A DNA stretch of 64,000 nucleotides from NCBI RefSeq assembly GCF_030285665.1, contig NZ_CP127295.1, positions 8,060,001 to 8,124,000 of the forward strand, written 5' to 3'. A model generated the notes under the pieces. The model saw only the letters and a list, made by a program, of their open reading frames with translations. It made no database searches and was not told the origin of the DNA. The position numbers and the translations under genes are program-made. Origin of the DNA: Amycolatopsis mongoliensis (GTDB lineage Bacteria; Actinomycetota; Actinomycetes; Mycobacteriales; Pseudonocardiaceae). How positions within the stretch are numbered: the first letter of the stretch is position 1; each line of letters opens with the position of its first letter. Positions 28,408 to 48,661 of the stretch are shown one piece after another.

Positions 28408-28436
28408 TTGAACCCCAAACAGGACACGCGTACTGT
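28408..28436 (+). promoter_or_regulatory. acn promoter
   Basis: TTGAAC (28408-28413), a 17-bp spacer and TACTGT (28431-28436) form one of the best promoters in the window. Transcription would start near 28443, giving a leader of roughly 130 nt before acn. An AcnR box (28420-28435) overlaps the spacer and -10. The remainder of the 28257-28575 gap holds no other clear element. Confidence 0.7.
28420..28435. promoter_or_regulatory. AcnR operator at the acn promoter
   Basis: CAGGACACGCGTACTG matches the published AcnR consensus CAGNACnnncGTACTG of Corynebacterium at every defined position. It covers the -10 hexamer TACTGT, so binding would block RNA polymerase. The regulator gene in this window is at 48080. 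Confidence 0.8.
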
Positions 28437-28575
28437 TTGAACCACCGCGAGGTGTGCCATCCCGAATCCGGTCCTACGGTGGGGGTGCGCAAGACTCGCC
28501 TCACCGAACCCGACCGAACTGACCCGGGACTCGACCGCCGCACCGGCGCGGAAGTCCATGCCACTGGAGTTAGAC

Positions 28576-31389
28576 GTGACCGCACCTGCCAGCAAGGACA
28601 GCTTCGGCGCCAAAGACACGCTGAAGGTCGGCGACGCCTCGTACGAGGTGTTCCGCCTGAACAAGGTCGAGGGCGCCGAGCGGCTGCCCTACAGCCTGAA
28701 GATCCTGCTCGAGAACCTGCTGCGCACCGAGGACGGCGCGAACATCACCGCCGACCACATCCGCGCGCTGAGCTCGTGGGACCCGAAGGCCGACCCGTCG
28801 ATCGAGATCCAGTTCACGCCCGCCCGCGTGATCATGCAGGACTTCACCGGCGTCCCGTGCGTCGTCGACCTCGCCACCATGCGCGAAGCGGTCACCGACC
28901 TCGGCGGCGACCCGGACAAGGTCAACCCGCTCGCCCCGGCCGAGCTGGTCATCGACCACTCGGTGATCATCGACGTCTTCGGCCGCGCCGACGCCTTCGA
29001 GCGCAACGTCGAGATCGAGTACGAGCGCAACCGCGAGCGCTACCAGTTCCTGCGCTGGGGCCAGGGCGCCTTCGACGAGTTCAAGGTCGTCCCGCCGGGC
29101 ACCGGCATCGTGCACCAGGTCAACATCGAGCACCTCGCCCGCACGGTCATGGCCCGGGGCGGCCAGGCCTACCCCGACTCCTGCGTCGGCACCGACTCGC
29201 ACACCACCATGGTCAACGGCCTGGGCGTGCTGGGCTGGGGCGTCGGCGGCATCGAGGCCGAGGCGGCCATGCTGGGCCAGCCGGTGTCGATGCTCATCCC
29301 GCGCGTCGTCGGCTTCAAGCTGACCGGCGAGATCCCGGCCGGCGTCACCGCCACCGACGTCGTGCTCACGATCACCGAGATGCTGCGCCGCCACGGCGTG
29401 GTCGGCAAGTTCGTCGAGTTCTACGGCGAGAGCGTCGCCGCGGTGCCGCTGGCCAACCGCGCGACCATCGGCAACATGAGCCCGGAGTTCGGCTCCACCG
29501 CGGCGATCTTCCCGATCGACGACGAGACCGTCCGCTACCTCAAGCTGACCGGCCGCTCGGCCGAGCAGGTCGCGCTGGTCGAGGCCTACGCCAAGGAGCA
29601 GGGCCTCTGGCACGACCCGTCGCACGAGGCGGTCTACTCCGAGTACCTCGAGCTGGACCTTTCGACGGTCGTCCCGTCGATCGCCGGCCCGAAGCGCCCG
29701 CAGGACCGCATCGAGCTGACGGACGCGAAGTCGTCGTTCCGCAAGTCGATCCACGACTACGTGGACGGCGAGGCCGTCACGCCGCACACGAAGATGGACG
29801 AGGCTTCGGAGGAGTCCTTCCCGGCCAGCGACTCCCCGTCGCTGTCCTTCGCCGAGGACGACGCCGCGCCGGTCACCAGCTCCGCCGCGAACGGCGCGTC
29901 GGGCCGCCCGAGCAAGCCGGTCAAGGTCTCCACGTCCGACCGCGGCGAGTTCGTCCTCGACCACGGCGCCGTGGTGATCGCCTCGATCACCTCCTGCACC
30001 AACACCTCGAACCCGTCGGTCATGCTCGGCGCCGCGCTGCTCGCGCGCAACGCCGTGGACAAGGGCCTCGCGGTCAAGCCGTGGGTCAAGACGTCGATGG
30101 CGCCGGGCTCGCAGGTCGTCACCGACTACTACACCAAGGCCAACCTGTGGCCGTACCTGGAGAAGCTGGGCTACCACCTGGTCGGCTACGGCTGCACCAC
30201 CTGCATCGGCAACTCCGGCCCGCTCTCGGACGAGATCTCCGCGGCGATCCAGGAGAACGACCTCACCGCGGTCTCGGTGCTCTCGGGCAACCGGAACTTC
30301 GAAGGCCGGATCAACCCCGACGTGAAGATGAACTACCTCGCGTCGCCGCCGCTGGTCATCGCCTACGCGCTGGCCGGCACGATGGACTTCGACTTCGCGA
30401 GCCAGCCGCTCGGCCAGGACGCGGACGGCAACGACGTCTTCCTGAAGGACATCTGGCCGACGGCCAAGGAAATCCAGGAGACCATCGACTACGCGATCAC
30501 GCAGGAGATGTTCACCAAGGACTACGCGGACGTCTTCGACGGCGGCGAGCGCTGGAAGGCGCTGCCCACCCCGGAGGGCAAGACCTTCGAGTGGGACGCC
30601 GAGTCCACCTACGTGCGGAAGCCCCCGTACTTCGAGGGCATGACGCCGGAGCCGGCCGCGGTCACCGACATCACCGGCGCGCGCGTGCTGGCGAAGCTGG
30701 GCGACTCGGTCACCACCGACCACATCTCCCCCGCCGGCGCGATCAAGCCGGGCACCCCGGCCGCGCAGTACCTCACCGAGCACGGCGTGGAGAAGAAGGA
30801 CTTCAACTCCTACGGCTCGCGGCGCGGCAACCACGAGGTGATGATCCGCGGCACCTTCGCGAACATCCGGCTGCGCAACCAGCTGCTGGACGACGTGCAG
30901 GGCGGTTACACCCGCGACTTCACGCAGGACGACGCCCCGCAGGCGTTCATCTACGACGCGGCGCAGAACTACGCGGCGCAGGGCATCCCGCTGGTCGTCC
31001 TGGGCGGCAAGGAGTACGGCTCCGGCTCGTCGCGTGACTGGGCGGCGAAGGGCACCTCGCTGCTGGGCGTGCGCGCGGTGATCACCGAGTCGTTCGAGCG
31101 CATCCACCGGTCGAACCTGATCGGCATGGGCGTCATCCCGCTGCAGTTCCCGGCGGGCGAGTCGGCCTCGTCGCTCGGCCTCGACGGCACCGAGACGTTC
31201 GACATCTCGGGCATCACGAAGCTGAACGACGGCGAGACCCCGCGCACGGTGCACGTCACCGCCACCAAGGCCGACGGCACCAAGGTGGAGTTCGAGGCGG
31301 ACGTCCGCATCGACACCCCGGGTGAGGCGGACTACTACCGCAACGGCGGCATCCTGCAGTACGTGCTGCGGAAGATGACGCAGGCGTAA
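28576..31389 (+). CDS. acnA: Aconitate hydratase A
   Basis: 937 residues from GTG 28576 (GGAG 6 nt upstream); an ATG at 28558 in frame has no ribosome site. It isomerises citrate and isocitrate in the TCA cycle. The [4Fe-4S] ligands are Cys474 (SCTNTSNPSVM), Cys540 and Cys543 (CTTCIGNSG). GSRRGNHEVMIRGTFAN and KEYGSGSSRDWAAKG are the C-terminal substrate-binding motifs. A low-complexity acidic insert (DEASEESFPASDSPS..., ~residues 410-450) before the Fe-S domain is typical of actinobacterial enzymes. Expression is probably repressed by AcnR, whose box overlaps the promoter. A strong terminator follows. Confidence 0.96.
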   Translation: MTAPASKDSFGAKDTLKVGDASYEVFRLNKVEGAERLPYSLKILLENLLRTEDGANITADHIRALSSWDPKADPSIEIQFTPARVIMQDFTGVPCVVDLATMREAVTDLGGDPDKVNPLAPAELVIDHSVIIDVFGRADAFERNVEIEYERNRERYQFLRWGQGAFDEFKVVPPGTGIVHQVNIEHLARTVMARGGQAYPDSCVGTDSHTTMVNGLGVLGWGVGGIEAEAAMLGQPVSMLIPRVVGFKLTGEIPAGVTATDVVLTITEMLRRHGVVGKFVEFYGESVAAVPLANRATIGNMSPEFGSTAAIFPIDDETVRYLKLTGRSAEQVALVEAYAKEQGLWHDPSHEAVYSEYLELDLSTVVPSIAGPKRPQDRIELTDAKSSFRKSIHDYVDGEAVTPHTKMDEASEESFPASDSPSLSFAEDDAAPVTSSAANGASGRPSKPVKVSTSDRGEFVLDHGAVVIASITSCTNTSNPSVMLGAALLARNAVDKGLAVKPWVKTSMAPGSQVVTDYYTKANLWPYLEKLGYHLVGYGCTTCIGNSGPLSDEISAAIQENDLTAVSVLSGNRNFEGRINPDVKMNYLASPPLVIAYALAGTMDFDFASQPLGQDADGNDVFLKDIWPTAKEIQETIDYAITQEMFTKDYADVFDGGERWKALPTPEGKTFEWDAESTYVRKPPYFEGMTPEPAAVTDITGARVLAKLGDSVTTDHISPAGAIKPGTPAAQYLTEHGVEKKDFNSYGSRRGNHEVMIRGTFANIRLRNQLLDDVQGGYTRDFTQDDAPQAFIYDAAQNYAAQGIPLVVLGGKEYGSGSSRDWAAKGTSLLGVRAVITESFERIHRSNLIGMGVIPLQFPAGESASSLGLDGTETFDISGITKLNDGETPRTVHVTATKADGTKVEFEADVRIDTPGEADYYRNGGILQYVLRKMTQA

Positions 31390-31403
31390 GGGTTTACGCT
31401 TTT

Positions 31404-31443
31404 CGAAAGGCCTCCCCGCCGATTCCGGCGGGGAGGCCTTTCG
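31404..31443 (+). terminator. Intrinsic terminator of acnA
   Basis: Perfect 18-bp stem: CGAAAGGCCTCCCCGCCG (31404-31421), loop ATTC, and its exact complement (31426-31443), followed by TTTCC. It starts 14 bp after the acnA stop. Confidence 0.85.
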
Positions 31444-47902: not shown

Positions 47903-48026
47903 CTTCCCCTCAGTTCACCCACCGTGATGGTGCAAAGATTAGCCAACTGTCTCACGCCGTGTCAGCGAATCGCCGCAACGTTCCGACGATGGGGCCACCG
48001 GTTCGGTTCCCGGACACTCCGGGTCA

Positions 48027-48042
48027 CAGTACGTACGTACGG
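48027..48042. promoter_or_regulatory. AcnR-box-like site upstream of acnR
   Basis: CAGTACGTACGTACGG matches CAGNACnnncGTACTG at all defined positions but one (G for T at position 15). It lies 37 bp before the acnR start and suggests autorepression. It lies in an alternating ACGT stretch, so the match is less striking than the acn site. Confidence 0.55.
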
Positions 48043-48079
48043 ATTGCGAGATCCCGGTCCGCGGTGCCAGGATTTCAGG

Positions 48080-48661
48080 ATGCCACGCGTAAGCCAGGAT
48101 CACCTCGACGCACGCCGGCGCCAGATCCTCGACGGCTCGCGCGTGTGCTTCGCACGCTACGGCTACGAAGGTGCCACAGTCCGGCGCCTGGAGGAAGCCA
48201 CCGGGCTGTCGCGCGGGGCCATCTTCCACCACTTCCGCGACAAGGAGTCGCTCTTCCTCGCCCTCGCCGAGGACGACGCCATCCGAATGGCCGACGTCGT
48301 CGCCGAGCAGGGCTTGGTCCAGGTGATGCGGGACCTCCTCGCCGGCGGTGACCACCCCGCCGACTGGCTCGGCACCCGCCTCGAGGTCTCCCGGCGGCTG
48401 CGCACCGATCCGGAGTTCCGCGCCCGCTGGGCCGAGCGGTCCGAGCAGCTGACCACCGCCACCCGCCTGCGCCTGCTGCGCCAGCGTGAGGCCGGGATCC
48501 TGCGCGACGACGTCGACGTCGACGTCCTCACCGCGTTCCTGGAGCTCGTCCTCGAAGGCCTGGTCTCGCACCTGGCCATGGGCCTGCCGGCCGCCGGCCT
48601 CGGCCCGGTGCTCGACCTCGTCGAGGAGACCGTGCGGCGGCACCGGCCGGGCACCGCCTGA
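48080..48661 (+). CDS. acnR: AcnR-like TetR repressor of aconitase
   Basis: 193 residues from ATG 48080. The N-terminus MPRVSQDHLDARRRQILDG and the HTH GYEGATVRRLEEATGLSRG, then AIFHHFRDKESLF, match AcnR, the TetR-type repressor next to acn in corynebacteria and mycobacteria. MADVVAEQGLVQVMRDLLAG follows in the effector domain. AcnR of Corynebacterium responds to citrate-Mg2+ and represses acn. Here acn is 16.7 kb away, but a perfect AcnR box overlaps its promoter and a one-mismatch box lies before acnR. A longer open frame from 47357 is not used. Confidence 0.88.
   Translation: MPRVSQDHLDARRRQILDGSRVCFARYGYEGATVRRLEEATGLSRGAIFHHFRDKESLFLALAEDDAIRMADVVAEQGLVQVMRDLLAGGDHPADWLGTRLEVSRRLRTDPEFRARWAERSEQLTTATRLRLLRQREAGILRDDVDVDVLTAFLELVLEGLVSHLAMGLPAAGLGPVLDLVEETVRRHRPGTA

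Follow-up and report, generated by a model that had tools for sequence, protein, structure and literature searches.

The acn and acnR Genes and Their Predicted Operators

We examined a 64,000-nucleotide stretch of the Amycolatopsis mongoliensis genome (hereafter, the window), which covers positions 8,060,001-8,124,000 of a 10.81 Mb genome assembled as one contig and carries acn, encoding the aconitase AcnA, together with acnR, encoding a TetR-type repressor, whose start at 48080 lies 16.69 kb behind the end of acn at 31389 (Table 1). Taken together, the orthology of AcnR, the palindromic boxes found at this and other loci, the conservation of these boxes, the nature of the genes behind them, and their co-occurrence with AcnR suggest, with a probability that we put at about 0.8, that AcnR represses its own gene and those of the aconitate/isocitrate node, and not that for aconitase alone. 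As judged from sequence comparison, the regulator itself is known, its predicted regulon being wider and the gene arrangement unusual and old.

The product of acn scored 1452 bits against the NCBIfam AcnA model (cutoff 686). The protein encoded at 48080 scored 213 bits to the Corynebacterium glutamicum AcnR (PDB 4ac6/4af5; next PDB entry, 46), with 104 identical residues out of 177 aligned and an identical SRGAIFHHF stretch. Its identification as AcnR in a preliminary description of this DNA was borne out: a closer homologue was sought genome-wide, and at E ≤ 1e-20 the 48080 protein was the sole match, so that the presence of another AcnR copy was rejected. Its best matches were to named Amycolatopsis proteins, the first eleven being 98-100% identical to it.

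Table 1. Coordinates of acn, acnR, their predicted operators, and the DNA between them (positions within the window).
Feature	Position	Strand	Remarks
Proposed acn promoter	28408..28436	+	TTGAAC 28408-28413, 17 bp, TACTGT 28431-28436, assigned by eye
AcnR box of acn, CAGGACACGCGTACTG	28420..28435	+	0 mismatches to CAGNACNNNCGTACTG; 3' half overlaps the proposed -10
acn, aconitase AcnA	28576..31389	+	GTG start; alternative in-frame ATG at 28558
acn-acnR interval	31456..47902		Hydrolases, MgtC, TetR, egt block, LysR-type, glutamate-dehydrogenase-like, prolyl aminopeptidase, further open reading frames
Ergothioneine block: EgtD, EgtC-like, EgtB-like, EgtA	36986..41328	-	NCBIfam scores and Pfam domains
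AcnR box of acnR, CAGTACGTACGTACGG	48027..48042	+	One mismatch; 37 bp between its end and the ATG at 48080
acnR, TetR-type repressor, 193 residues	48080..48661	+	Orthologue of C. glutamicum AcnR; TetR_N domain

As the box consensus we used CAGNACNNNCGTACTG, which we take from the preliminary description. The perfect box that had been claimed before acn was confirmed at 28420. Its overlap with a -10 element is consistent with the promoter placed by eye, but the promoter scan found no promoter at acn at its threshold. The boxes were then compared among 60 relatives, namely 36 members of the genus (the genome of the window included) and 24 genomes of other families of the order, with 300 bp searched upstream of each gene. 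All 36 congeners had a box with at most one mismatch, 142-193 bp upstream of acn. Another aconitase-like gene of the window's genome (C1:433951-435306) had no site with at most one mismatch nearby in the genome-wide box list, and its control by AcnR was rejected for that reason.

The one-mismatch box reported 37 bp before acnR was likewise confirmed by position and sequence. Such a site alone is not rare, since the 10.8 Mb genome holds, besides two perfect boxes, 31 strand hits with at most one mismatch, as compared with 17 for the reversed pattern, and a chance match before acnR, with only the acn box being real, therefore had to be considered. Seven of 80 named AcnR loci, which include Saccharomonospora, Saccharothrix, Lentzea, Kutzneria, Crossiella, and Actinokineospora, had no box 41-54 bp before acnR. 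However, a box with at most one mismatch was present before acnR in 34 of the 36 congeners (32/36 at 52-53 bp before the gene), and the other 73 named loci had a box with at most three mismatches at 41-54 bp, 41 loci having at most one. Its placement before acnR and its conservation make the acnR box credible, and we consider the chance explanation hardly tenable.

Predicted AcnR Boxes before icd and tam

The second perfect box of the window's genome lies before a gene whose product is, according to NCBIfam, a trans-aconitate 2-methyltransferase (tam; 404 bits, cutoff 320). The gene for NADP isocitrate dehydrogenase, icd (763 bits, cutoff 335), has a one-mismatch box 56 bp before it. Boxes with at most one mismatch were found before icd in 36 and before tam in 34 of the 36 congeners; in the two tam exceptions (G007 and G013), a perfect box touches the called start. 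Mean column conservation was higher within the boxes than in the 40-bp flanks for acn (0.92 vs. 0.66 on each side), acnR (0.98 vs. 0.54 left and 0.79 right), icd (1.00 vs. 0.86/0.66), and tam (0.91 vs. 0.60/0.62), where the site values are raised because only rows having a site were kept. A chance origin of the boxes was rejected on the grounds of this conservation and of the reversed-pattern controls. The conserved boxes before icd and tam predict targets beyond aconitase, the only one described for AcnR, and hence a wider regulon, which is compatible with the protein being an AcnR. A MarR gene 4-5 kb from icd (G000:C1:1526709-1527179) recurs at the equivalent place in several congeners.

Co-Occurrence of the Boxes with AcnR

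Among the 60 relatives, acn was found in all and AcnR in 47, with one copy per AcnR-positive genome at E ≤ 1e-20 (two partial rows in G058). In the 11 AcnR-positive genomes outside the genus, the acn box was present with at most two mismatches in 9, and the icd box with at most one mismatch in 6 of the 7 having icd. In the 13 AcnR-negative genomes, a box was found at acn in 0 of 11 measured, at icd in 1 of 7, and at tam in 0 of 10 measured. Counted by family, the acn box occurred in 7 of 8 AcnR-positive families and in 0 of 7 measured AcnR-negative ones.

These data bear on a second alternative, that the icd and tam boxes belong to another regulator recognizing the same palindrome, while AcnR binds acn and acnR only. 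TetR proteins can share motifs, and the flavour of the box does vary with the target in this sample, being mostly CAGGAC or AAGGAC at acn, CGGTAC at icd, and CAGTAC at tam. However, the acn box itself has both the CAGGAC and the CAGTAC flavour across Mycobacteriaceae-type genomes, and the boxes nearly vanish along with AcnR: perfect sites gave 108 strand hits in the 47 AcnR-positive genomes (control, 20) and 2 in the 13 AcnR-negative genomes (control, 1). We thus regard a separate regulator of icd and tam as improbable.

The 60 relatives contained 86 distinct perfect sites, of which 34 precede tam, 24 acn, 3 icd, and 1 acnR; of the other 24, only some of which were read in sequence, two precede a monomeric icd and aceA. 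The monomeric icd was found in G047, which has AcnR and no dimeric Icd match at E ≤ 1e-100; a perfect box lies there 88 bp before a gene whose product, a monomeric isocitrate dehydrogenase of 738 residues (1272 bits to TIGR00178, cutoff 950), has no match to the dimeric Icd models. In 81 genomes that we call Mycobacteriaceae-type, an assignment inferred from gene order (for example, isocitrate lyase together with 3-hydroxyacyl-CoA dehydrogenase-like and methyltransferase-like genes in L246), AcnR was present in 79, and the 96 distinct perfect sites comprised 64 at acn, 7 at tam, 4 at aceA, 1 at icd, and 20 others, 14 of which fall inside a mechanically called open reading frame. Strand hits exceeded those of the reversed pattern in both sets (110 vs. 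21 in the 60 relatives and 123 vs. 24 in the Mycobacteriaceae-type genomes). When the 30 best-scoring of 58 Mycobacteriaceae-type icd loci were read, L475 (G106) being left out as mis-anchored near a contig start, 25 of the 29 usable loci had a box with at most two mismatches and 22 with at most one. In the window's own family (60 genomes, 46 genera), 27 further loci among those with perfect sites were read, and these comprised 11 at acn, 9 at tam, and 7 at neither.

Several observations weigh against a regulon of this width. A tam box with at most two mismatches was found in only 2 of 5 AcnR-positive members of the order outside the genus. AcnR is present without an acn box in G044 and G057 and without an icd box in G054, and in G045, which is AcnR-negative, a one-mismatch site occurs 271 bp before icd. 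The per-genome counts ignore relatedness, and the perfect sites with no sought gene behind them, 24 of 86 and 20 of 96, are near the numbers of the reversed pattern. The monomeric icd as a target was seen in one genome, and aceA in four. In addition, C. glutamicum AcnR and Mycobacterium tuberculosis Rv1474c are described for aconitase only, as far as the excerpted sources go.

The Separation of acn and acnR Appears to Be Old

The preliminary description presented the locus as a clean case of an operon broken by accessory DNA, with the regulatory link seemingly surviving. Adjacency of the two genes, stated there for corynebacteria and mycobacteria, proved to be the commoner state in the Mycobacteriaceae-type genomes: in 61 of the 64 in which the acn box is perfect, acnR directly follows acn, 2.7-3.7 kb behind the box, the exceptions being G070 and G076, in which the genes are split, and G129, in which they are on different contigs. 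The two genes also adjoin in G038, G042, G044, G047, G053, G055, and G057, and in G058 as judged from a fragment. This feature, typical of AcnR though not essential to it, is absent from the window.

In 35 congeners, a single contig carries both genes, which share a strand and are separated by 9.4-26.9 kb; in the 36th (G002), they are on different contigs. Eleven of the 80 named loci include acn, nowhere less than 5.2 kb upstream of acnR, and in none of the 75 loci having at least 5 kb of upstream DNA was acn found closer than 5.2 kb. We compared the genes of the interval with 25 other stretches, from 18 congeners, two genomes of other families (G039 and G049), and five named loci, one stretch (L526, G006) being incomplete, ending ~3 kb before acnR (72,100 vs. 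acnR at 75,106). The four egt-type genes of the window recurred in 23 of the 25, the LysR-type gene in 18, and the glutamate-dehydrogenase-like gene in 17, and three open reading frames of a proposed ESX region in 10 to 13; the G039 and G049 stretches were those without egt-type genes. In the five named loci, where the gaps measure 5.2-6.6 kb, the space between acn and acnR is mostly taken up by the full set of four egt-type genes.

Within the block, EgtD scored 377.9 bits (cutoff 290.9) and EgtA 357.9 bits, just below its cutoff of 370.8, and the EgtB-like and EgtC-like genes were assigned by Pfam domain. The gene content given earlier for the interval held for MgtC, the alpha/beta hydrolases, the egt genes, and the prolyl aminopeptidase, and, as a glutamate-dehydrogenase-like gene far below the family cutoffs, for the amino-acid dehydrogenase; the ESX operon is unconfirmed, since two open reading frames scanned in that region gave no NCBIfam match. 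A TetR regulator was missing from the earlier gene list. It lies at 34129-34704 and forms a divergent pair with an alpha/beta hydrolase gene at 33187-34038; neither was found in any of the 25 other stretches, and the pair is likely a recent arrival in the window's strain.

These results allow the weighing of the view that AcnR controls acn and itself only, that accessory DNA broke their operon, and that the boxes are a remnant of the old link. The frequency of the adjacent arrangement and the two interval genes absent from the 25 other stretches accord with it, and the smallest intervals would agree with the egt block having been inserted between acn and acnR long ago. On the other hand, the genes are split in all measured congeners and named loci, and egt-type genes recur in nearly all stretches, which argues against recent accessory DNA as the separator; the icd and tam boxes are, moreover, conserved as well as the acn box. 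We consider this view unlikely, and a local insertion as the cause of the split was rejected for the genus. What stands of the earlier claim is that the protein is AcnR and that both genes carry its box; an insertion probably parted them long ago. By comparison of gene order, the split is an old arrangement common to the relatives, and not a recent break. The egt block appears as the constant separator in the window's relatives, since the smallest intervals hold little else, later enlarged by variable genes, and it may have been the original insertion.

The position of acnR was also compared with the presence of its own operator, by searching the 120 bp before acnR with a joint cut, set after seeing the rows, of at most three mismatches in the 16-mer and at most one in the core. 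Among 30 Mycobacteriaceae-type AcnR loci read, a palindrome 35-38 bp before acnR was found in all four loci without acn within 1.5 kb (G070, G101, G076, and G118), and in 2 of the 26 with acn directly upstream (G072 and G099). Of the three split genomes of other families, G039 has a box at 30 bp with two mismatches, G054 one with three mismatches, and G049 only a weaker match with two mismatches 91 bp before acnR. G072, G099, and G118 belong to a single genus of the Mycobacteriaceae-type family, g36, in which two genomes have the acnR operator in the acn-acnR gap and the third has no acn within 1.5 kb of acnR. In this genus, the operator may have arisen ahead of the split.

Comparison with Known Regulators and a Proposed Mechanism

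C. glutamicum AcnR (PDB 4ac6, 4aci, and 4af5) is orthologous to the protein encoded in the window, has the same recognition-helix stretch, and likewise has its box at the acn promoter. It differs in being described, in the excerpted sources, for acn, whereas here the genes are 16.7 kb apart, acnR has its own box, and boxes precede icd and tam. Rv1474c of M. tuberculosis, which we compared by description, is similarly a TetR-like regulator of aconitase; unlike the regulator proposed here, it is called iron-dependent, and the excerpted review mentions no icd or tam target (PMC10961391). TamR of Streptomyces coelicolor, as described in an excerpt of PMC5487221, is a repressor of several citric-acid-cycle genes, among them that for aconitase, and its hold on DNA is weakened by citrate and trans-aconitate. 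Named after tam, it may resemble AcnR in working, tam, acn, and icd all being predicted targets here. However, TamR is of the MarR family and AcnR is a TetR protein with no MarR family among its Pfam matches, and AcnR may work like the Streptomyces TamR while being unrelated to it.

A MarR-type gene, which we term TamR-like as judged by its position and MarR-type sequence and not against the S. coelicolor protein, is divergent from tam in 5 of 11 AcnR-negative tam loci. None of the 51 AcnR-positive tam loci examined had a MarR neighbour, but 0 of 35 is the fairer figure, because 16 of the loci were picked for carrying the box. When whole genomes were searched with the tam-neighbouring MarR protein, matches of at least 54% identity came from six genomes, all of them AcnR-negative, and lie beside tam in five and beside acn in the sixth (G040); any matches in AcnR-positive genomes were of at most 49% identity. 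For the other seven AcnR-negative genomes, the parts examined showed no such MarR gene next to tam or acn.

According to our proposed model, a dimer of AcnR would bind a palindromic 16-bp site resembling CAGKACGNNCGTACTG within the acn, icd, and tam promoters and, where acnR stands alone, that of acnR itself, which would place acnR under negative autoregulation. Because AcnR acts in trans, its distance from acn would be immaterial, given the operator of its own. These genes would cover the conversion of citrate to isocitrate (acn) and of isocitrate to 2-oxoglutarate (icd), as well as the methylation of trans-aconitate, an off-pathway isomer (tam). A build-up of citrate or a related tricarboxylate would release AcnR, and the whole node would be derepressed together. 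Binding, promoter repression, and the effector are inferred here from sequence and from the C. glutamicum protein. In the excerpted sources, the latter binds citrate-Mg with a dissociation constant (KD) of 6 mM (PMC4746285), and acts between the -35 and the -10 of acn (PMC9936768). Together, these properties suggest a feedback that would open the path from citrate to 2-oxoglutarate and clear trans-aconitate at once.

In the literature available to us in part, AcnR is treated as an aconitase repressor and is used as such in C. glutamicum metabolic engineering, its mycobacterial counterpart being treated as an aconitase regulator; a search of an open-access collection, in which the primary AcnR and TamR papers appear only as citations, turned up no mention of AcnR acting on icd or tam. 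If the proposed regulon is correct, deleting or tuning AcnR should, in Amycolatopsis and probably also in mycobacteria, alter how flux divides at isocitrate and how trans-aconitate is removed.

We tentatively consider a broader hypothesis, to which we give slightly less than an even chance, that a single regulon of acn, icd, tam, and at times aceA is held by either of two unrelated and mutually replacing regulators, AcnR (TetR) or TamR (MarR), with the target set, and not the regulator, kept by evolution. In this hypothesis, acnR would leave the acn operon after gaining its own operator, genus g36 would represent the intermediate, and the egt block would have moved in among the window's relatives. 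If true, this would clearly illustrate how unrelated repressors can alternate in the control of one regulon, and would offer a testable path for a regulator gene out of its operon.

Other Perfect Boxes and Minor Observations

In the four Mycobacteriaceae-type genomes mentioned above, the perfect boxes lie ~220-265 bp before isocitrate lyase (L246 (G042:C1:857323), L364, L377, and L387). The stray perfect boxes that were examined had no common theme, and the count of stray boxes is near the chance number. In three genomes of genus g46 (L361, L381, and L382), the box CAGAACATACGTACTG occurs within similar flanks, with no node gene behind it. The record L311, titled Rhodococcus rhodnii NRRL B-16535, encodes an AcnR 89% identical to that of the window, and its upstream 16-mer is the same as in Kibdelosporangium and Actinosynnema loci; the label of this record may be wrong. 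A perfect palindromic box lies ~10 bp before an MFS transporter gene (L244:2189; G039:C2:2317688), and another lies directly before a glutamine-amidotransferase-like gene (L351:1501; G091). A CitE-like C-C lyase gene, which scores below the family cutoffs, has a further perfect box at its start (L404:2500; G070).

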